From contig NZ_JAELVR010000002.1 of NCBI RefSeq assembly GCF_016428585.1, positions 248,001-312,000 on the forward strand: a stretch of DNA of 64,000 nucleotides, read 5' to 3'. Below are positions 22,050-31,110 of the stretch, one piece after another. Made by a program: the position numbers and the translations under genes. The stretch's first letter is position 1. The number at the start of each line of letters is the position of its first letter. This DNA comes from Sedimentitalea arenosa. Lineage in GTDB: Bacteria; Pseudomonadota; Alphaproteobacteria; Rhodobacterales; Rhodobacteraceae. The notes under the pieces were generated by a model, which had not been told where the DNA came from, did no database searches, and was given only the letters and a program-made list of their open reading frames with translations.

Positions 22050-23396
22050 CTATGACCTGCCACCCATCAAAGCTGCGTCGAACGGATAGCGCGTCAGGTT
22101 CTCGTAGCCGTCCTCGGTGATCAGCACCTGGTCTTCGAGCTTGATCGTGAAATCTCCGCCGACCTCTCCCACAGCGGCTTCAACACAAAGCACCATGCCG
22201 GGTGCGAGCGCATAGTCGAAGGCGCCCGGAACTGCCTTGTCGGGATAGGCCACCAGGGGCCATTCGTCACAAAGGCCGACCCCGTGCATCAGGCAACCAT
22301 ATTTCTGTGCCTGGAACCTGTTGTCCAGCCGATGGCAATTGGCGGTCAACTCGGGGATGGTCACACCGGGTTTCAACATGTCCATGTTGGTCATGATGTG
22401 CTCATGGGCGTGCTGCATCGCGTAGACCATGTCCGGACGGGGCGCATGGTCGCCGATCCACCAGGTGCGCGAGATGTCGATGCAGATGCCGTAGGAGCCG
22501 ATCAGGTCGGTGTCGAAGGCGACGATCTCGTTCTTGTTCACTACCCGCGGTCCGCATTCCTGGAACCATGGGTTGGTGCGTGGTCCCGACGCCAGCAGGC
22601 GGGTTTCGATCCATTCTCCGCCGCGCTTGATGTTTTCGGCATGCAACACGGCCCAGATGTCGTCTTCGCAAGTGTGCCCATCGCCCACATTGGCGCGGGC
22701 GAAGTCTTCCATCGCACGCACGGAGGTTTCACAGGCATGGTTGGCGCAGCGCATCGCCAGGATCTCGTCCGGTCCCTTCACGGCGCGCGCCTTCTCGGTG
22801 ACTTCCTCACCCTCCATGAGAACAAGTCCCTGTGCCTCCAGCGCCCGCGCCCCGCTCAGCATGATCTTGTCCACCGCCAGCCGCTTGTTGTCGCCGGCAT
22901 GGTCGTACAGCACGTCGGCCACTTCGGCGGCAAAGGCCGCGCTGCTGTCCTCTCCCCTGTCCCCGCAGGAGAAATAGAACATCGATGCGCCCGATCGCTG
23001 CTCGCGCACCAGCGGGTTGAACGTGCTCAGGAACGGTGAATTCTTGTAGTCCCAGATCACCATATACCCATCCGCGCAGAGCAGCACGGCGCGGAACGGG
23101 TTATGCGTGTTCCACAACTGCATGTTGGTGCTGTCGGTGGCATAGCGGATGTTGAGCGGGTCGAACATCAACAGACCGCCATAGCCGCGTGCGACGATAT
23201 GCTGGGTCAGCCTTTGCCAGCGGTACGTCCGCATCCGCGGCAGGTTTGGCAAGGTCAGCCCCGCTGCCGCCCACTCCGCCAGCGCCAATTGTGTCGGCCC
23301 GATCTCGATGCGGTCCTGATCGTTTGGAGTTCCGTCGGCCAGTATGTCGCCTTGCGTCGGGTCGATCTTGCGCCTGTCGCGGTAATGGGTGTTCAT
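22050..23396 (-). CDS. dddP: DMSP lyase DddP
   Basis: DddP cleaves dimethylsulfoniopropionate to DMS and acrylate. The protein (448 residues) belongs to the M24 peptidase fold but has the DddP residue set: metal ligands Asp295, Asp297, Asp307, His371, Glu406 and Glu421, and the proposed catalytic Asp377, all at the positions reported for roseobacter DddP as I recall it. Long identical-looking stretches such as MFDPLNIRYATDSTNMQLW and HGVGLCDEWPLVAYPD support orthology rather than generic M24. AGGAGG precedes the ATG at 23396. It is divergent from the DUF3445 gene with 95 bases between. No acrylate genes are adjacent. Confidence 0.95.
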   Translation of the reverse strand: MNTHYRDRRKIDPTQGDILADGTPNDQDRIEIGPTQLALAEWAAAGLTLPNLPRMRTYRWQRLTQHIVARGYGGLLMFDPLNIRYATDSTNMQLWNTHNPFRAVLLCADGYMVIWDYKNSPFLSTFNPLVREQRSGASMFYFSCGDRGEDSSAAFAAEVADVLYDHAGDNKRLAVDKIMLSGARALEAQGLVLMEGEEVTEKARAVKGPDEILAMRCANHACETSVRAMEDFARANVGDGHTCEDDIWAVLHAENIKRGGEWIETRLLASGPRTNPWFQECGPRVVNKNEIVAFDTDLIGSYGICIDISRTWWIGDHAPRPDMVYAMQHAHEHIMTNMDMLKPGVTIPELTANCHRLDNRFQAQKYGCLMHGVGLCDEWPLVAYPDKAVPGAFDYALAPGMVLCVEAAVGEVGGDFTIKLEDQVLITEDGYENLTRYPFDAALMGGRS

Positions 23397-23491
23397 GGGC
23401 AGGCCTCCTCGACAGTCATGCTGCGACGGGTGGGGCAGGGCGTCCGTCCGGAATGCGACCGGGCCGGTGTCGTTTTTTGGGAGCGTTGAAG

Positions 23492-24238
23492 ATGCGTGAA
23501 ATCCTGCAGCAAGAGCTGCCCTACGACGTCGCCGCGGCGCGTCCGCTGCCGGGGATCCGGCCGCTCGACATGGCCGACTGGCTGCTGCGGGACGAGGCCT
23601 TCGCGGCACAGATGGCCGAGCGCGAGCGGCTTCTGGCGGCTCGGCGAGAGGAGGTGCTGGCTCTCGATCCTGCCGCACGGACGGCGGCGCTGGAACTGCT
23701 TGACCTGGTGGTGGCCCAGGCCTTTCCCGGCGCAGGCGATCACGTGACCCGGCCCGATGGCGTGACGGTGGCGCTGGACCGGACCGATCCGATGGACACA
23801 CTCGGGCGCCTCGCACAGGAGGATTTCTGCATCCTCCAGAAGCAGGGCGACGAACATGTCCTGACCGGCGCGGTCCTGTGCTTTCCGGCGAGCTGGACGC
23901 TACGCGAGAAATTCATGCGCCCGCTCACCACGATCCACGATCCGGTCGACAGCTACGACCAGGGCATGGCCAGGCGGGTGCAGCGCCTGTTTGATGGGGT
24001 GCGTGTGGGCCAGCCTCTCTGGCGGTTCAACGCGCTCTGGTATGTCGACCCGACGCTGCACCAGCCGCGCAGCGTTTCCGATCCCCGCCCGCGCCAGACA
24101 TCCGGCGCGGCCGAGTTTTTGCGCAGCGAACGCCAGACCATCCTGCGCTTGCCGCGCAGCTCGGCAGTCGTATTCGCGATCCACACATTCGTCGTGTCGC
24201 GGCGCGACTATGAGGCGCACGGGCAAATGCCCGATTGA
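23492..24238 (+). CDS. DUF3445 haem-dependent oxidative N-demethylase family protein
   Basis: This 248-residue protein matches the DUF3445 family (haem-dependent oxidative N-demethylase alpha-subunit, the family of DmmD from the dimethylamine mono-oxygenase of roseobacters). Seen: an N-terminal LPGIRPLDMADWL, then REEVLALDPAARTAALELLDLV, EDFCILQKQGDEHVLTGAVLCFPASW, and RSERQTILRLPRSSAVVFAIHTFVV. The dmmABC partner genes are not here, so the substrate is open. GGAG lies 8 bases before the ATG. It is divergent from dddP. Confidence 0.85.
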   Translation: MREILQQELPYDVAAARPLPGIRPLDMADWLLRDEAFAAQMAERERLLAARREEVLALDPAARTAALELLDLVVAQAFPGAGDHVTRPDGVTVALDRTDPMDTLGRLAQEDFCILQKQGDEHVLTGAVLCFPASWTLREKFMRPLTTIHDPVDSYDQGMARRVQRLFDGVRVGQPLWRFNALWYVDPTLHQPRSVSDPRPRQTSGAAEFLRSERQTILRLPRSSAVVFAIHTFVVSRRDYEAHGQMPD

Positions 24239-24399
24239 TCGCCGCGGCCACAGCTCGCGGACGTGACGGGCACATGCATGCCGCCAACAGTGCCGATTCA
24301 ACCGCGAATTCTCGGGCAGAATTCCGTTGAACGACCGTGAGCATTGCGTCTCGGGCAATTGGTCGTAAACTGTTTGATGGGTGAAGACGGGGGCAGACG

Positions 24400-24882
24400 A
24401 TGAGCGCGAAAAAGCCGGGCTTCGGCGAAATCGGCGACATGAATGAACTCGTGGCGCTCTATGTCGATACCGTGCAGGCCTGGATCGACGCACTGCCGCG
24501 GCATCGCGACGAATCCGAACCGCCCCCCGGATCGAACCGAGAGATCATGCTGCTTCTGGCGCGTGCGCAGGCGGCCTGGCTGACCAGCGGTCTTCGGTAT
24601 GGCCAGCAGGTCAGCGCGTTGATGGCCGATCGCGGAATGGACCTTGCGGGCCTGACGAGCCTTGTGCGCGAACCGCCGGCCGACGCCACCCCGGACGAGA
24701 CACGCCGCCAGATCGAACTGATCGACAAGGCCCGCGATTTCCTGACCCAGGTGGCCGATGCTTCCCTGACCGAGGCCGAAACCCTGCGTATCCAGTTGCT
24801 CAAGATCGAGCGCGAGTTGCGCGCGCTTCAGGCAGGTGGATCCGACCCGGACCCCAAACGCAACGTCCGGACCAAGCGATGA
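24400..24882 (+). CDS. Uncharacterised helical protein
   Basis: This 160-residue soluble, mostly helical protein has no family I recognise. Several amphipathic helices (MNELVALYVDTVQAWIDAL, REIMLLLARAQAAWLTSG) are followed by a C-terminal coiled-coil-like stretch (TEAETLRIQLLKIERELRAL) and a basic tail. There is no signal peptide or membrane helix. It overlaps the polyprenyl synthetase by four bases (ATGA), so the two are translated together and may interact. Confidence 0.8.
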   Translation: MSAKKPGFGEIGDMNELVALYVDTVQAWIDALPRHRDESEPPPGSNREIMLLLARAQAAWLTSGLRYGQQVSALMADRGMDLAGLTSLVREPPADATPDETRRQIELIDKARDFLTQVADASLTEAETLRIQLLKIERELRALQAGGSDPDPKRNVRTKR

Positions 24883-25820
24883 ACAACGATCATGGGGCAG
24901 GGCGGGCCGACTGGGTGATCCCGGAACTCGGGTTCGAGGTCGAAACCGAGCGCTTGCGCCAGGCCATTGCCGACTGGCTCGAAGGCACCGATCCCGAGAT
25001 GAGCGAGGCGCTTGGCTGGCAGTTCCTGGCAGGCTCCAAGTATTTCCGTCCGCTGACCATGTTCAGCTGCGCCCGCGCGCAGACCGGCGAGGTCAGTGAT
25101 CGGGTGATCCGATCGGCGGTCGCGCTGGAACTGTTTCACAACATGACGCTGGTGGTTGACGATATTCTCGACCGGTCCGACACGCGTCGGGGCAAGGCGA
25201 CGATGCACGCGAGGTTTGGACAGCTCAACGCGCTGATGACGTCGGGCTACATGACCGCCGAAGCCTATCGCATGATGGCCGACGACGCGCAGGCGGTGCG
25301 GCTCTTGTCGGAATTGATGACTCGTCTTGGGGCGGCGGAATGTGCGCAATGGCGGCTGCGCTGCCAGCCGCTTGGCGTGTCGGATTGGCGCAAGCTGGCG
25401 CAGGAGGACACCGGCTCGATGTTCGAGGTCGCAGCCTGTCTCGCGGATCGCAGCGAGGCGCTCAGGCTCTATGGCCGCTATCTGGGGATGCTCTATCACG
25501 CCTGTGACGACGTATCCGACGTGCGTGGCACCGATGCGCTCGGAGAGGGTGGTGGCGACGAGGATATCCGCGACGGGATCCTGACCCTGCCGGCTGCCAT
25601 CGCGACTCTCGACAAGGACGTGCGCGAGATGTTTCGCAAACCGGACGCGTCGAACTATGCGGCGTTGGCCGCGGCCTTCCGCGCCGTGTTGCCCGAGGCC
25701 GAGGCCGAACTGGACATCCTTGCCGACCAGGCGCGCGATGAAGCGATCAAGAACGCGGACGATCCTGCGCCATTGCTGGCGCTGGTCGACCGCACGCGAT
25801 TGCTGGGCAACAAGGTCTGA
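24879..25820 (+). CDS. Divergent polyprenyl (trans-isoprenyl) diphosphate synthase
   Basis: This 313-residue all-helical enzyme has both aspartate-rich motifs: DDILD at 94-98 followed by RRG, and DDVSD at 210-214, then GDEDIRDGILTLPAA. These bind Mg and the diphosphates of the allylic substrate and IPP. Other usually conserved parts are altered: GGKRxRP is GSKYFRP (52-58), and the normal KTA region reads QEDTGSMFE. So it is a remote member of the trans-prenyltransferase family rather than ordinary octaprenyl or geranylgeranyl synthase. Chain length and product are unknown. It is translationally coupled to the helical protein upstream and convergent with the cyclase gene. Confidence 0.88.
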   Translation: MNNDHGAGRADWVIPELGFEVETERLRQAIADWLEGTDPEMSEALGWQFLAGSKYFRPLTMFSCARAQTGEVSDRVIRSAVALELFHNMTLVVDDILDRSDTRRGKATMHARFGQLNALMTSGYMTAEAYRMMADDAQAVRLLSELMTRLGAAECAQWRLRCQPLGVSDWRKLAQEDTGSMFEVAACLADRSEALRLYGRYLGMLYHACDDVSDVRGTDALGEGGGDEDIRDGILTLPAAIATLDKDVREMFRKPDASNYAALAAAFRAVLPEAEAELDILADQARDEAIKNADDPAPLLALVDRTRLLGNKV

Positions 25821-25830
25821 CCAGGGCCGC

Positions 25831-28800
25831 TCAGGCCTTGGCGGTCTGGCGTTCGGTTTGCTGCAGATGTTTCAGCAAGCGCGCGGCTCGCACCGGGTCG
25901 GGATCGTCGCGGCCTTCGGGTAGGGCTTCGATCAGCGGCTTCAGCAGCGTGCGGCCCGTCTCGGGATCGCCTTGCCGGCCCAGCAGATCCGCAAGGCCCG
26001 TCGCGGCGCGAAGCTGCCAGGCGACGGCCTTGAGCTTGCCGCCCCATTCCAACGCATCGCGCCAGGCTGACAGGGCGGACTCGCCGTCGCCTGCCATCTC
26101 GCAGACCCGTGCGCGCGCGATGCGCACATCGGCGGCCAGCGAGATTTCGCCCGAGGTCGCGACCAAATCTTCGACGCCGTCCAGTACCGCAAGCGCGGCG
26201 TCGGTGTCGCCCTTTCTCGCCAGCATGATCGCCTGCATCCCGCGGAAATGCGGCTCGTGCAGGCGGAAGGACATCGCCCGACAAACATCGAGCGACGCGC
26301 CGACGATGTGCAACGCTTTCTCCAGTTCGCCGGTCGCCGCCAGCGCCTCGGCCTGCCAGAACAGGCTGAAACCGGCCGCGAAATCATACCCCATCCGCTT
26401 GGCATAGCTGACCGCGTCGGTCGCCACCTGCAACACCGCGTCGGACCGTCCCTGCAAGGCCGCGAGGCGGCAGATGCCGTTCACCTGGGCGTAGATCTGC
26501 GAATAGGGGTCATTCAGCGTTTCGGCATGATCCAGCGCCGATTGCGCCATCAGCGTCGCCCGTTCGGAATGGCCGGTCGCCCAGAGCGATGCGGCATGCC
26601 AGCATCGCGCGATCACCAACGGGTCGCCCGTGGTGTGACGCGGCGCGGACGAATCCCACGCGCCGCTGGCGAAATGCTCCTCGGCCCGTTCGGCCCAGTG
26701 GCGCGACTCGGCATAGTTGCCGCAGCTGTAGTGCGACCAGGACAGGGCCGATCCGGCCGAGACGAGAAGTCGCGGATCGTCGCCTGCGATCTCGGCGATA
26801 CGCGACAGTTCCACATGACCCGCCGACACTTCGCCGCGCATCGCAAGATGCGCACCGTATCCGTTGTGAAAGGCGATCTGGAAATCCTTGCTGGTGCCGG
26901 ACGGATCCAGGGCGCGCGCCCGGGCGAAGGCGGCGCCGACCTCGGGGGAGGCATGGCCCTTGATCCCGCTCAGCACCGCGCCGTGAGCCACGTGCAGTTG
27001 CAGTTCCAGCGTCTCGCGGTCTTCCGTCTCTGCCATACGCGCGACCTGGTCCAGCCCGGCGCGCACATGGGCGTGCGCCTCGCTGGTGACCCCGCGCTGG
27101 CGGGCGGCTTGCCCGGCGGCGAGCCAGTAGCGGGCTGCCTCCGCCGGAGCGCCGGCTTCGGCATAGTGGCGCGCGACGAATTCCGGAGCGGTCTTCAGCC
27201 GATCGGGAAAGCTCTCCTCGATGGCGCGGGCGATGCGCAGATGCATGTCCTGACGGCTTCGGTTCAACAATGACTCATAGGCGGCGTCGCGGATCAGCGC
27301 GTGGCGGAACACCCAGGTGTCGGCCTCCTTGGCGGCAAAGATCAGGTCGGCATCTGCCAGGTCATGCAGCGCCGCCACCACCGCCTCGGGTGTTCTGCGC
27401 GACACCTCCAGCAGCAGTTCGAGGTCGAATTCCCGCCCGATCACCGAGGCGATCTGCGCCACCTGGCGTGGACCGCTCAACTCGTCGAGCCGAGCCATCA
27501 GCGTGTCGCGCAGCGAGGCCGGAACCGCCGTGATGGTCTGGTGATCCATCTGCACCAGCGACTTGGTCAGTTCTTCCGCAAAGAAAGGGATGCCATCCGC
27601 CCGTGCCGCAAGTGCCGCGCGCACGTCCTCGCTCAGCGTCAGGTCGGGGGCGAGATGGGAAATCAGCGTCTGCACCTCGCGCGGGTCCAACCTCTCGATA
27701 TCGCAGAGCGTGACGCGTTCGGATTCGCCCCAAGGTGGCTCGAGCCCTGGCCGGAAGGTGCCGACCACCAGCACGCGCCCCTCGGCCACCACGTCGGTCA
27801 TCCGATGCAACAGTTGCAGCGTCGTTGGGTCGGCCCAATGCAAATCCTCGAAGAACAGCATGACCGGGCTTTCCTTCGCCGCCCGCAGGATCAGCGAGAG
27901 CATCGCATCGAACAGGCGTTCACGTTGCAGGCCGACCGAGATCGTCAGCGGCGGGAAGCGGTCGGTCGGTAGTCCCATGAGCCCCGCGATCAGCGCGCCC
28001 TGGTCTTTGGCCTGGCTTTCGGTCAGCCCGAAATAGCCGAGAATCTTGTCGATCTTCGTGTCCGGCGAATCCTCGCGGTCGAACCCCGCGCCGTATTCCA
28101 GCGCCCGAATGATCGGGTGCAGCGCCGTGTTGGAAAAATAGGGCGAACAATGCAACTGCACCAGCGATGGCCCTTCCATCCCTGAGCGTTGTTTCAGTTC
28201 CCGCAGCAGCCGGCTCTTGCCCAGACCGGCCTCGCCGCGCAGCATGATGACGTTGCCCTTGCCGGCCTTGGCGCGCGCCCAACCCTCCATCAGCAGGCCG
28301 ATTTCGACGTCGCGCCCGACCAGCGGGGTGATCTGCTGGGTGTTGCGCGCCTCGAAGCGATTGCCGCTCTGGGCCGGGCCGATGATCCGCCAGGCTCTCG
28401 TGAGACCGGGTATGCCCTTGAGTTCGAGCGGCTTCAGAGGCTCGCTGTCGAAGCTGCGCCCCAGCAGCCGGTGCGTGCGTTCACCGACCACGATCTGATC
28501 GGGTTCCGCCACTGCCTGCAGACGCGCGGCCAGGTTCGGCGCATCGCCCGAAACCACCGCGCCTTCATACAGTCCACGCCCGACAAGGTCGCCGACGACG
28601 ACCAGCCCAGTGGCAATGCCGATCCGTGTCTGCAAGCGCAGGCCCTGCGGCGACTTGAGCTGCGACAGGGCCTCGATCAACGCCAGACCCATGTTGACCG
28701 CGCGTTCCGTCGCGTCTTCCTGCGCCGTCGGATAGCCGAAATAGACCATCGAGCCGTCGCCGAGGAACTGCGCCACGTGGCCGCCGGCGCGGGTCGCGGC

Positions 28801-29163
28801 GTCGGATACCGTTTCGTGGTAGAGCCGGATGAGGTCGCGGAACTCCTCGGGGTCGAGTTGAGAGGATATCCGCGTCGAGCCGACCATGTCGCAGAACAGG
28901 ATCGTCAGTTGCCGCCGTTCGGCCTCCCATTCGGTGGCGCCGCGTCGCGGTCGCGCGACCTGTTCGCGCTCGGGCGCGGCCTCCTTGATCGCCCGCAGGA
29001 TCATCAGGCGGTGGCCCAGGATTTCCACCCCAAGCTGTTTGAGCGCCTCGTGGTCGAGGTCGTTCAGGAGGTCCGGCGTTATCTGTTGGCTTTCGAAACT
29101 CTCCGCGTATTGCGGCAAACCGATCTCGGCCAGCCAGGTCGATATTCCCATAGCTCTTCCCAT
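25831..29163 (-). CDS. SAM-domain/adenylate cyclase/AAA ATPase/TPR regulator
   Basis: This large cytoplasmic signalling protein (1110 residues) has an N-terminal SAM domain (about 5-62), a class III nucleotide cyclase domain (about 85-262), an AAA/ATPase module with P-loop GEAGLGKS at 310-317, and a long C-terminal TPR-like helical region. In the cyclase the metal aspartates (Asp92, Asp136) and the Asp207/Asn210/Arg214 group are present, but the purine-selecting lysine is Gln132 (VAQFLGDG instead of the usual VAKxxGDG). It is the second gene of an operon behind a FAD enzyme, 57 bases apart. Related proteins are often called 'adenylate/guanylate cyclase with ATPase and TPR', with unknown ligands. 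Confidence 0.9.
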   Translation of the reverse strand: MGRAMGISTWLAEIGLPQYAESFESQQITPDLLNDLDHEALKQLGVEILGHRLMILRAIKEAAPEREQVARPRRGATEWEAERRQLTILFCDMVGSTRISSQLDPEEFRDLIRLYHETVSDAATRAGGHVAQFLGDGSMVYFGYPTAQEDATERAVNMGLALIEALSQLKSPQGLRLQTRIGIATGLVVVGDLVGRGLYEGAVVSGDAPNLAARLQAVAEPDQIVVGERTHRLLGRSFDSEPLKPLELKGIPGLTRAWRIIGPAQSGNRFEARNTQQITPLVGRDVEIGLLMEGWARAKAGKGNVIMLRGEAGLGKSRLLRELKQRSGMEGPSLVQLHCSPYFSNTALHPIIRALEYGAGFDREDSPDTKIDKILGYFGLTESQAKDQGALIAGLMGLPTDRFPPLTISVGLQRERLFDAMLSLILRAAKESPVMLFFEDLHWADPTTLQLLHRMTDVVAEGRVLVVGTFRPGLEPPWGESERVTLCDIERLDPREVQTLISHLAPDLTLSEDVRAALAARADGIPFFAEELTKSLVQMDHQTITAVPASLRDTLMARLDELSGPRQVAQIASVIGREFDLELLLEVSRRTPEAVVAALHDLADADLIFAAKEADTWVFRHALIRDAAYESLLNRSRQDMHLRIARAIEESFPDRLKTAPEFVARHYAEAGAPAEAARYWLAAGQAARQRGVTSEAHAHVRAGLDQVARMAETEDRETLELQLHVAHGAVLSGIKGHASPEVGAAFARARALDPSGTSKDFQIAFHNGYGAHLAMRGEVSAGHVELSRIAEIAGDDPRLLVSAGSALSWSHYSCGNYAESRHWAERAEEHFASGAWDSSAPRHTTGDPLVIARCWHAASLWATGHSERATLMAQSALDHAETLNDPYSQIYAQVNGICRLAALQGRSDAVLQVATDAVSYAKRMGYDFAAGFSLFWQAEALAATGELEKALHIVGASLDVCRAMSFRLHEPHFRGMQAIMLARKGDTDAALAVLDGVEDLVATSGEISLAADVRIARARVCEMAGDGESALSAWRDALEWGGKLKAVAWQLRAATGLADLLGRQGDPETGRTLLKPLIEALPEGRDDPDPVRAARLLKHLQQTERQTAKA

Positions 29164-29220
29164 GTCTTTCCCCCGGCTTCCCCTCCGGGTCTATCCGTTG
29201 CCGTCGCGCCGAAGGGCGCG

Positions 29221-31110
29221 TCAGCTCTTCTCCCCATACACTTTCTTGCCGTCGCCCTTGTGCTTGCGAAATCCCTTGTCGTCGTAGTTCCAGTAGATCG
29301 GTCCGGTCGCCAGCGGATGTCCCTTGGGCAGGTTCCGAACCGAGTTGGTCCAGTTGATCGGGCCGAGGTACTGCGGCGGGTTGGGCTTGCGCCCCATGAA
29401 GGGTTGCAGTGCCTTTACGGCGGCCTTGATGAACTTGCGCTGCATCTCTTCCCAGCCGCTGCCGTATCTGCCCATCGTTGTGTTCGCCTCAGACCACAGC
29501 TTGGCGCTGGCGGCCAATGGCGCCCAGGCCAGCTTGAGGGCCTGGAACAGTTCCGGCGGAAAGGATTCCGGCTCCAGCACCGCGATCGGTTCCGCGCGCG
29601 GCGCACGGCGCGCGCGGATCGCCTCGGCCGCGTTCAGACCCGAGATAACGGCCCCCTCAATGGTCGAAACGTCCATGAGGTTCTTGACGTAAGTGCCCGC
29701 CATCCAGAGATTTTCCAGCGGCGTCTCGGTATCTGGTCGGCGCTCCCAGCTGCCGACCATGTTGGCGAATAGTTCCTCGCCCGTGTTCATGTCGAATGCC
29801 GTCTTGCGCAGATCGATGTCCTTGAGTTCGACCGGCAGGTGCTGCATCACCTCGCGCAGCACGTATTCAATCGCCGTGGTCGGATGATCGAGGTCGAGGA
29901 TCAGTTCATATTCGTGCTTGTGTCCCTTCGGATGGCGTTTTTCTGCCGGCACGGACAGCAGTGACACGACATCCGAACAGGTCACGTAGAGGAACGTGTT
30001 CGGCTTCTGACCCGCGGGGGTATCGTGCCTGATGTCGCGCCACAGCTGGGTGTAGTCGAGGAACGTCATATAGTATTTGGCGCCCTCGAAATCGGTCACG
30101 TCCTTGGGCAGTTTGGCGATATGGCAGTTCAGGTAGAGCTGCAGCGCGCCCATCGGCTCGGCCTCGAGATACTGCACCTCGCCCAGATGCGGTGCCGCGT
30201 CATAGAACTCGTCCGTGAGCAGCCGCTTGATGGCGCCGGGAGTCACGGCGAGGATGACGGAGTCATGCGACACGTCCACCTCTTTCGTATCGGTGGTCTT
30301 CCAGCTGTCGTTCACCGAGGGCGACCGGTTCACGATGTCGAATTCGAGCTTTGCGATCTTCGTGCGTTTTTCATTAGGCAGAACCTTGCTCAACCGATGC
30401 AGGGGCATCAGCTCGAAACGCTTCTCCTTGCCGGGCTCGTTGAAACTTTCCAGCGTTTTCAGCCAAGGCTCCATCAGGTATTCCCACTTGTTTCCCGCCA
30501 GCAGGAAGAACTCGGGTACCGAATAGCGGTTGGTGTACTTCACGAAGGTCCGATAGCTCTTTGCCGAAGCTTGATAGGACGAGATCGCCCAGACGGTTTC
30601 CCACAAGGTCTGATGCAGGTCGGCGGCGGTTCGGGTCATGTAAGGGCGCGAGTGCAGGAACCCGTTGACAGAATACTTGTCCAGCAAGTCGTGCTGGTGT
30701 TCAGGCTCGGCCAGCATGTCGATCATCGAGTACATGTAGATGAACAGGTCCGGCGCCGGCGCGGCCTCGGAATCCATGTTGCGCAGGAAATCCTGTGGCC
30801 CGCTTGGATTGAACATCGCGGGCAGGCGGTCCAACTCGTCTCCGCGCAGGAAACGGAAGGCTTCGCGTGGCGTGAAATTGTTCTTGATTCCGATCTGCTC
30901 GGCGATGGTCCAAAAGTTGAAATAGAAGTTCGGGAACATGTGATAGGAGTGTTCCCGCCGGGTCCGGGTCACCTCGTCCCAGTAGGAATGCAGCATTCCG
31001 CCGACGAATTCGTCCTGTTCATACAGCGTGACGTGGAAACCGCGTTCGAGCAAACGAAGGGCCGCGCTCATTCCGGCGACGCCAGCCCCGACAATCGTTA
31101 CAGTCTTCAT
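29221..31110 (-). CDS. FAD-dependent oxidoreductase, phytoene desaturase/amine oxidase-like
   Basis: This 629-residue flavoprotein has a dinucleotide-binding N-terminus (TVTIVGAGVAGMSAALRLLERG) followed by EQDEFVGG and MFPNFYFNFW. Near the C-terminus is LWMAGTYVKNLMDVSTIEGAVISGLNAAEAI, the FAD-closing motif of the amine oxidase/carotenoid desaturase superfamily. After it comes a 120-residue extension with a hydrophobic segment (about 500-530) and a Pro/Asn/Gly-rich end. Family members remove hydrogens from isoprenoids (phytoene, hydroxysqualene) or amines. The nearby prenyl synthase makes an isoprenoid substrate a fair guess. GGGAGGG precedes the ATG. Confidence 0.85.
   Translation of the reverse strand: MKTVTIVGAGVAGMSAALRLLERGFHVTLYEQDEFVGGMLHSYWDEVTRTRREHSYHMFPNFYFNFWTIAEQIGIKNNFTPREAFRFLRGDELDRLPAMFNPSGPQDFLRNMDSEAAPAPDLFIYMYSMIDMLAEPEHQHDLLDKYSVNGFLHSRPYMTRTAADLHQTLWETVWAISSYQASAKSYRTFVKYTNRYSVPEFFLLAGNKWEYLMEPWLKTLESFNEPGKEKRFELMPLHRLSKVLPNEKRTKIAKLEFDIVNRSPSVNDSWKTTDTKEVDVSHDSVILAVTPGAIKRLLTDEFYDAAPHLGEVQYLEAEPMGALQLYLNCHIAKLPKDVTDFEGAKYYMTFLDYTQLWRDIRHDTPAGQKPNTFLYVTCSDVVSLLSVPAEKRHPKGHKHEYELILDLDHPTTAIEYVLREVMQHLPVELKDIDLRKTAFDMNTGEELFANMVGSWERRPDTETPLENLWMAGTYVKNLMDVSTIEGAVISGLNAAEAIRARRAPRAEPIAVLEPESFPPELFQALKLAWAPLAASAKLWSEANTTMGRYGSGWEEMQRKFIKAAVKALQPFMGRKPNPPQYLGPINWTNSVRNLPKGHPLATGPIYWNYDDKGFRKHKGDGKKVYGEKS

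Follow-up and report, generated by a model that had tools for sequence, protein, structure and literature searches.

A proposed four-gene accessory module in Sedimentitalea arenosa, built around a divergent prenyl-synthase homologue, hints at an undescribed isoprenoid reaction

We analysed a 64,000-nucleotide stretch of Sedimentitalea arenosa DNA, hereafter called the window, and propose that four of its genes form an accessory, regulated isoprenoid module with a synthase-fold enzyme, IDS, which may catalyse something other than plain chain elongation. We give this reading a probability of about 0.48. The replaced lysines in IDS hint at an undescribed isoprenoid reaction. An open-reading-frame check and Pfam bore out the genes and gene types listed in an earlier note on this DNA (Table 1), and a viral scan gave no match. 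The tail-to-tail arrangement described there fits the gene orientations in the window, but it is not conserved, as a genome of another genus (G277) has a different one. The genes for IDS and the 160-aa protein P160 share a four-base ATGA overlap in the window, in the sister species Sedimentitalea xiamensis and in G277.

Table 1. Positions in the window and Pfam matches of the four module genes and the upstream neighbour.
Gene	Description	Position	Strand	Pfam match
HODM-like	HODM alpha-subunit-like gene, neighbour upstream	23492..24238	+	PF11927, E 3.1e-49
P160	160-aa orphan protein, probably helical	24400..24882	+	none
IDS	divergent trans-prenyl synthase homologue	24879..25820	+	PF00348 (polyprenyl_synt), E 6.8e-34
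CYC	putative regulator	25831..29163	-	SAM, Guanylate_cyc (class III nucleotide cyclase), AAA_16, weak TPR
FAD	HpnE/desaturase-like amine-oxidase-family flavoprotein	29221..31110	-	PF01593 (Amino_oxidase), E 1.6e-21

How does IDS differ from other prenyl synthases? With 117.6 bits against a gathering score of 27, it belongs to the PF00348 family. Both Asp motifs are present, as first read, in the forms DDILD and DDVSD, and Lys54, Arg57, His87, Arg103 and Arg104, which include the IPP-site Lys and Arg, are kept. The GGKR region, previously called altered, has changed to GSKYFRP, but the Lys and second Arg of the GGKRxRP pattern are retained. The alteration of the KT motif is a replacement of its Lys by Asp, and two more conserved lysines and one Gln, which the earlier note missed, are replaced as well. 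Asp177, Glu223, Ile234 and His207 of IDS occupy positions that are Lys in 31/31, Lys in 31/31, Lys in 30/31 and Gln in 31/31 of the other synthases compared, a set in which the sampled natural variation is narrow because most of its members are IspB-like. One lysine site is that of the KT motif, the next follows the second Asp motif and the third stands ahead of TLP; the Gln site precedes the second Asp motif. Both Sedimentitalea copies share the four-site change, and the G277 copy has Asp, a gap or Gly, Ile and His at the same sites. We take the lysine and IPP-site positions to bind diphosphate, as in FPP synthase structures.

The window IDS is 88% identical to the S. xiamensis copy and 57% to the G277 copy. 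Its substitution rates (dN 0.086, dS 0.92) point to purifying selection; dN/dS is about 0.09 for both IDS and FAD, as compared to 0.13 for purM, indicating a similar constraint, and IDS and FAD are therefore not decaying genes. In a 17-row tree, the three IDS proteins group together with full support on very long branches, which are flagged as unsafe.

P160 has no match in Pfam, NCBIfam, PHROGs, PADLOC or the PDB sequences at the limits used, and a P160 profile found nothing among the PDB sequences up to E 10. The S. xiamensis counterpart is 53% identical. G277 carries a 168-aa homologue at the same place, with a local alignment score of 73 against a shuffled mean of 31.4 (sd 5.5), a score reached by 0 of 1000 shuffles. 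A 156-aa hypothetical protein of Ruegeria was rejected as a homologue, since its score was equalled or exceeded in 692 of 1000 shuffles, and a phasin identity, suggested by inspection of the sequence, was dropped because a Pfam search up to E 10 gave no match. The family-wide P160 search missed the true G277 homologue and returned weak matches (E 0.003–0.1) in 40 further genomes; a second search recovered 22 of the 28 loci available for them, and by eye these 22 were other proteins or wrong frames. The description of P160 as helical holds as a low-confidence prediction (AlphaFold mean pLDDT 55.9).

Does IDS still elongate chains? A two-subunit enzyme of IDS and P160 resembling HexPS or HepPS, with an unusual product, would account for the small overlapping gene upstream, the retained DDxxD motifs, Arg pair and IPP-site Lys and Arg, and the nearest PDB relatives by sequence, which are mostly long-chain synthases, with the large HexPS and HepPS components lower down the lists. 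We nevertheless regard elongation as unlikely: three lysines and a Gln that are nearly invariant in the 31 synthases are gone, two of the lysines having become acids in Sedimentitalea, and no kinship of P160 to a HexA/HepS-type small subunit is seen, because P160 is without a Pfam, NCBIfam or PDB match at the limits used.

The lost lysines, if they play the assumed role, would also suit a catalytically dead IDS that works as a subunit alongside P160, the flavoprotein or another synthase, in a binding or regulatory role; the small subunit of plant GPP synthase is a precedent. A dead enzyme needs no strictly kept motif residues, however, and all three copies, down to 57% identity, strictly retain the six motif Asp residues, both Arg residues and those of the IPP site. 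We therefore disfavour this explanation and rate it a little below elongation.

IDS was found in only 3 of the 394 genomes of the family searched, and the module is thus not a general roseobacter feature. S. xiamensis carries the four genes in the order of the window. In G277, homologues of all four are present in a different order, with the small gene, the synthase and the cyclase co-directional and the flavoprotein divergent. The partners therefore accompany IDS in both other genomes, as expected from the original proposal, and their recurrence in another genus with a different order supports a functional linkage. The HODM-like gene adjoins the cluster in S. xiamensis, while the G277 region gave only a 10-residue chance match; we treat it as a neighbour, and its membership in the module is unsupported.

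An isoprenoid function, as first proposed, is likely. The best NCBIfam model of the flavoprotein is HpnE (TIGR03467), but the score of 91.2 bits falls well short of the 283 required, and the protein lies far below all equivalog cut-offs. Residues 499–629 extend past the Pfam domain, and for roughly the last 80 of them G277 has no equivalent. The flavoprotein is 85% identical to the S. xiamensis copy and 35% to that of G277; the three form a fully supported clade in a 10-row tree, whose very long branches are flagged as unsafe. Its AlphaFold model is poor (pLDDT 33.6).

Away from the locus, the genome has three other PF00348 genes, and IDS is therefore not its sole prenyl synthase. One of them, C3, has the octaprenyl synthase model as its best match (312.2 bits, under the cut-off of 412). 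That IDS is the ordinary ubiquinone-tail enzyme of a genome that lacks ispB, the outcome that had been named as fatal to the idea, is thus not supported. Around the cluster, nothing contradicted the reported lack of a squalene or phytoene synthase, but a different contig of the genome carries two PF00494 genes. A strong phytoene-synthase-type match and a crtE-like gene stand about 3.3 kb apart, so the cell may make carotenoids. In S. xiamensis, which keeps the module, the synthase has just two further matches and PF00494 no strong one.

CYC is 73% identical to its S. xiamensis counterpart and about 30% to that of G277, and the search rows place it at 33–41% identity to cyclases of other loci. 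Since the G277 protein is no closer than these, CYC is the weakest member of the module. The G277 cyclase lacks the Asn that we take to be catalytic; a gene for a Crp-type cNMP-binding regulator adjoins it downstream on the same strand. CYC scores 445.2 bits with TIGR03903 (TOMM kinase/cyclase), under the cut-off of 705.75. The idea that such cyclases generally accompany prenyl synthases was rejected, as 12 other cyclase loci have neither a synthase nor a related flavoprotein in stretches of 3–20 kb from six genomes (seven in G031, with several contigs that barely exceed the gene). One of these 12 loci had a match to another oxidoreductase from the Ruegeria region described below.

It is improbable that no pathway exists and that a variable site beside purM has gathered unrelated accessory genes, perhaps a cyclase-based defence module: none of the seven tested window genes left of purM turned up in the roughly 15 kb that lie upstream of it in 6/6 other genomes, and the cyclase domain has matches among the PycC models of PADLOC (best E 9.7e-18), but the four genes stay together in another genus with other neighbours, the other four proteins scanned match no PADLOC effector model, and the 12 cyclase loci showed no synthase or related flavoprotein in the stretches covered.

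Two further lineages favour the proposal: related flavoproteins lie beside prenyl synthases in two of two Ruegeria plasmids, which are near-copies, and in all four Streptomyces plasmid cases examined of eight records. Against it, annotation of 3–6 kb flanks revealed no synthase neighbour in the four haloarchaeal cases examined of eight records, and none was found in a Nocardia stretch. Searching plasmids with the synthases of the window and of G277 gave distant relatives only, whose lysines were examined in Ruegeria and Streptomyces and are retained in both. The Ruegeria cluster (NZ_CP031947, NZ_CP045385) comprises a cyclase, a family 1 encapsulin, DUF3237, an FAD oxidoreductase and a polyprenyl synthetase. 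It shares with our module a cyclase of similar architecture and a related flavoprotein adjoining a prenyl synthase, but its flavoprotein belongs to another clade and a shell protein is present. We rejected an encapsulin link and consider this cluster a parallel case, because its synthase keeps the lysines and the shell family PF04454 has no match in 26/26 genomes, including those of the window, S. xiamensis and G277. The module's match to NF041169 (family 2 encapsulin cargo polyprenyl transferase) is 96.8 bits, under the cut-off of 450, and our literature searches found nothing that joins encapsulin, polyprenyl and adenylate cyclase. We recognised no account of the cluster in the literature searched, including the accessible part of PMC8346489. 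Gromomycin clusters contain a polyprenyl synthetase, and one strain has an extra FAD-dependent oxidoreductase, according to the part of PMC13010261 consulted.

From the observed genes, recurrence, residue changes and purifying selection, we infer the following catalytic and regulatory steps for the accessory module. IDS would use the Asp motifs and the intact IPP-site Lys and Arg residues to bind Mg2+ together with a prenyl or isopentenyl diphosphate. Because the lysines presumed to grip the allylic diphosphate are replaced, IDS most likely does not perform ordinary head-to-tail elongation. Instead, it could convert a prenyl diphosphate made by one of the other synthases of the genome, by transfer or cyclisation. 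P160 may assist as a small partner, stabilising or positioning IDS, and the flavoprotein would then oxidise or desaturate the product. CYC would sense a signal and make a cyclic nucleotide that controls the module, a step favoured by the Crp-type gene beside the G277 cyclase.

More tentatively, IDS may define a new class of the prenyl-synthase fold, in which the allylic lysines give way to acidic and neutral residues while the IPP and metal sites are kept, with a small partner of its own, a flavoprotein for the last step and control by a cyclic nucleotide. Such an enzyme would not elongate chains; it could cyclise its substrate or transfer a prenyl group to an acceptor that is basic or neutral. 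Few enzymes are as well understood as the prenyl synthases. If the proposal is true, half of an active site has been kept and half rebuilt under strong selection, tied to a flavoprotein and a cyclase, on a path from chain elongation to new terpenoid chemistry unlike the insect and fungal routes. The module would then be a concrete product-discovery target in marine bacteria.

How does the module compare with known systems? The trans-isoprenyl diphosphate synthases of the octaprenyl, nonaprenyl and solanesyl types share with IDS the family match, both DDxxD motifs, the RRG after the first Asp motif and the Lys and Arg of GGKRxRP. IDS differs from them in Asp for the KT-motif Lys, Glu (lost in G277) and Ile for two more lysines, His for the Gln before the second Asp motif, and a very long branch. 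In the two-component hexaprenyl and heptaprenyl synthases, a small gene is coupled to the synthase gene, as for P160 and IDS, but here the small protein has no sequence match and the synthase has lost its lysines. HpnE, a hydroxysqualene dehydroxylase, and the zeta-carotene and phytoene desaturases share a superfamily with the flavoprotein and supply its best NCBIfam models; it differs in its low HpnE score, in the C-terminal part past the Pfam domain, and in having no squalene or phytoene synthase seen alongside. Insect and fungal prenyl-synthase-like terpene synthases also depart from the conserved substrate-binding residues: in the accessible parts of the sources, insect enzymes tend to lose the IPP-binding motifs, and fungal enzymes mostly change the second Asp motif (PMC10962984, PMC13143122, PMC7484799). 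Our comparison with the insect type covered the GGKRxRP Lys and Arg, His87 and Arg104, where the insect work, as far as consulted, used 15 residues, and IDS keeps all of those covered. In IDS, unlike these terpene synthases, the GGKRxRP Lys and Arg and both Asp motifs stay, and other conserved lysines go.

The module genes are real open reading frames in the ORF check of the window: a divergent trans-prenyl synthase homologue (IDS), a 160-residue orphan protein (P160), a SAM/cyclase/AAA/TPR protein (CYC) and an HpnE/desaturase-like flavoprotein (FAD). P160 gave no family or profile match at the limits used, and its gene overlaps that of IDS by ATGA in the window, in the sister species Sedimentitalea xiamensis JM2-8 and in G277, a relative of another genus. 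At the place corresponding to dddP, S. xiamensis has fragmentary matches only. In all six other genomes fetched, the ~15 kb upstream of purM gave no match to any of the seven tested genes that lie left of purM in the window, and the module site is therefore variable.

Features at the window locus and at related loci
Feature	Sequence	Positions	Strand	Match
dddP, DMSP lyase gene	window	22050-23399	-	NF043017, 893 bits (cut-off 600)
HODM-alpha-like protein	window	23492-24238	+	PF11927 (Pfam); not an isoprenoid gene
P160	window	24400-24882	+	
IDS	window	24879-25820	+	PF00348, E 6.8e-34 (Pfam)
CYC	window	25831-29163	-	SAM, nucleotide cyclase, AAA, weak TPR models (Pfam)
FAD	window	29221-31110	-	flavin amine oxidase family, E 1.6e-21 (Pfam)
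crtE-like synthase, window's genome	L003	1390-2304	-	
G277 flavoprotein	L110	13440-15398	+	
ispH-like gene, G277	L110	19112-19978	-	
Encapsulin row, Ruegeria sp. AD91A plasmid	L113	8950-17119		

A gene set retained in a new order, as in G277, says more about function than synteny between sister species does. The G277 IDS (57% identical to the window IDS) has the gene for a 168-residue protein directly upstream and a SAM/cyclase/AAA/TPR-like gene directly downstream, followed on the same strand by a Crp-type cNMP-binding gene; the flavoprotein gene is divergent, and its product is 35% identical by alignment and 29% by tblastn. None of 1000 shuffles scored as high as the 168-residue protein against either Sedimentitalea P160, and by this test it is a P160 homologue. 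The three IDS proteins form a fully supported clade (17 chosen rows) and the flavoproteins of the window, S. xiamensis and G277 likewise form a fully supported one (10 rows), in trees whose very long branches drew a warning from the tree tool. The G277 flavoprotein also has an insertion close to its N-terminus that carries several cysteines (CARCDMPGC), a possible metal site; the window FAD does not have it. About 3.7 kb from its gene lies what we take from sequence to be ispH, possibly ordinary synteny.

Close homologues of IDS and of FAD were each found in 2 of 41 relatives, own genome included, and a two-row IDS profile matched 3 of 394 family genomes (E up to 1e-32). FAD was found in 1/398 genomes of the phylum sample and 1/385 of the class sample, own genome counted; with at most three candidates scored per genome, these counts are lower bounds. 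P160 scored strongly in 2 of 394 genomes by a search that is insensitive, because it missed the true G277 homologue. A peptide-pattern scan of the GTDB contig collection, using patterns from two near-identical proteins that were not expected to reach G277, found S. xiamensis only. The alphaproteobacterial genome G031 (several contigs; L086, L092-L095) gave eight matches to CYC, with E up to 1e-100.

How does IDS differ from other synthases? Aligned with 31 others from these genomes, mostly IspB-like, both Sedimentitalea copies retain the six Asp residues of the two motifs, together with K54, R57, H87, R103 and R104. Positions 177 and 223 are Asp and Glu (Lys in 31/31 comparison synthases), 234 is Ile (Lys in 30/31) and 207 is His (Gln in 31/31); the G277 IDS has D, a gap beside G, I and H at sites 177, 223, 234 and 207, respectively. 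From FPP synthase structures, we take the lysines at 177, 223 and 234 to bind the allylic diphosphate, and K54 and R57 to bind IPP. Of the altered GGKR and KT regions described in the earlier note, the KT change stands, as one among four, while the GGKR change is mostly conservative in the alignment, with K54 and R57 kept. The dN/dS ratios, from dN and dS between the window and S. xiamensis copies, are ~0.09 for IDS and FAD, 0.13 for purM, 0.21 for CYC, 0.23 for the HODM-like gene and 0.33 for P160.

The most likely reading, at a probability of 0.48, is that the module serves to produce or alter an isoprenoid under regulation: IDS, with its synthase fold, would catalyze a reaction other than plain elongation, the flavoprotein would perform an oxidation step, P160 would act as a partner and CYC would provide signal input. 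The retained Asp and presumed IPP-binding residues would also suit an elongating two-subunit synthase, an unlikely reading beside the lost lysines. Somewhat less probable is a dead binding subunit, which fits those losses better than the retained aspartates. An unrelated grouping of four genes at a variable site is improbable beside their retention in G277.

The observation is real, and it survived both refutations that the earlier note had proposed: homologues of IDS, P160, CYC and FAD occur together in G277, and IDS is not the sole such enzyme of the window's genome (26 contigs), which has four PF00348 genes. The one on contig C3 has an octaprenyl synthase as its top model (312.2 bits, under the cut-off of 412), and that on C23 is presumably ispA, judged from motifs. 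We call the C1 gene crtE-like for its surroundings: PF00494 is matched strongly (214 bits) ~3.3 kb away, and the gene adjoins a methyltransferase gene that we take to be crtF. Among NCBIfam models, farnesyl diphosphate synthase ranks first for its product (181.7 bits; cut-off 275), which scores 127.3 bits against the CrtE model (cut-off 460). The GGKR Lys of this crtE-like synthase is replaced by Ala. S. xiamensis has two further matches to the window IDS besides its own copy. Its only PF00494 match is a weaker, partial one of a type seen in 5/5 genus genomes searched; since S. xiamensis nevertheless carries the module, the module seems independent of carotenoid genes.

A related flavoprotein was matched in 19 records, and the counts here cover the 11 viewed. 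On two Ruegeria plasmids, the flavoprotein (on one, unannotated and found by sequence match) adjoins a prenyl synthase, and genes for a cyclase and for a family 1 encapsulin lie there too. The row on L113 and L114 comprises a family 1 encapsulin shell gene, cyclase, DUF3237, FAD oxidoreductase and polyprenyl synthetase. It may represent a shell-enclosed pair of isoprenoid enzymes with cyclic-nucleotide control. The flavoprotein also adjoins a prenyl synthase on 4/4 Streptomyces plasmids examined (L127, L128, L132, L133), where the two genes are convergent and overlapping and an MpaB-type or DUF2236 oxygenase lies two genes off. No synthase neighbored it by annotation within 3-6 kb flanks on 4/4 haloarchaeal plasmids examined, and none was found by it in a Nocardia stretch. 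The lysines lost in IDS are kept in the Ruegeria synthase and the two Streptomyces synthases compared. The family 1 shell (PF04454) was found in none of 26 genomes, including the window's genome, S. xiamensis and G277.

A literature search covering few subscription journals found no description of the module cluster. In insect terpene synthases derived from prenyl synthases, residues of the IPP-binding motifs tend to be lost (PMC10962984, PMC13143122), and their fungal counterparts mostly have an altered second Asp motif (PMC7484799); the IDS residue pattern is unlike both. Polyprenyl transferases occur in family 2 encapsulin operons, some of which have cNMP-binding shells (PMC8346489). Against the family 2 cargo model, with its 450-bit cut-off, the L127 synthase scores 348.8 bits and the window IDS 96.8 bits. 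The module is a variant within known families.
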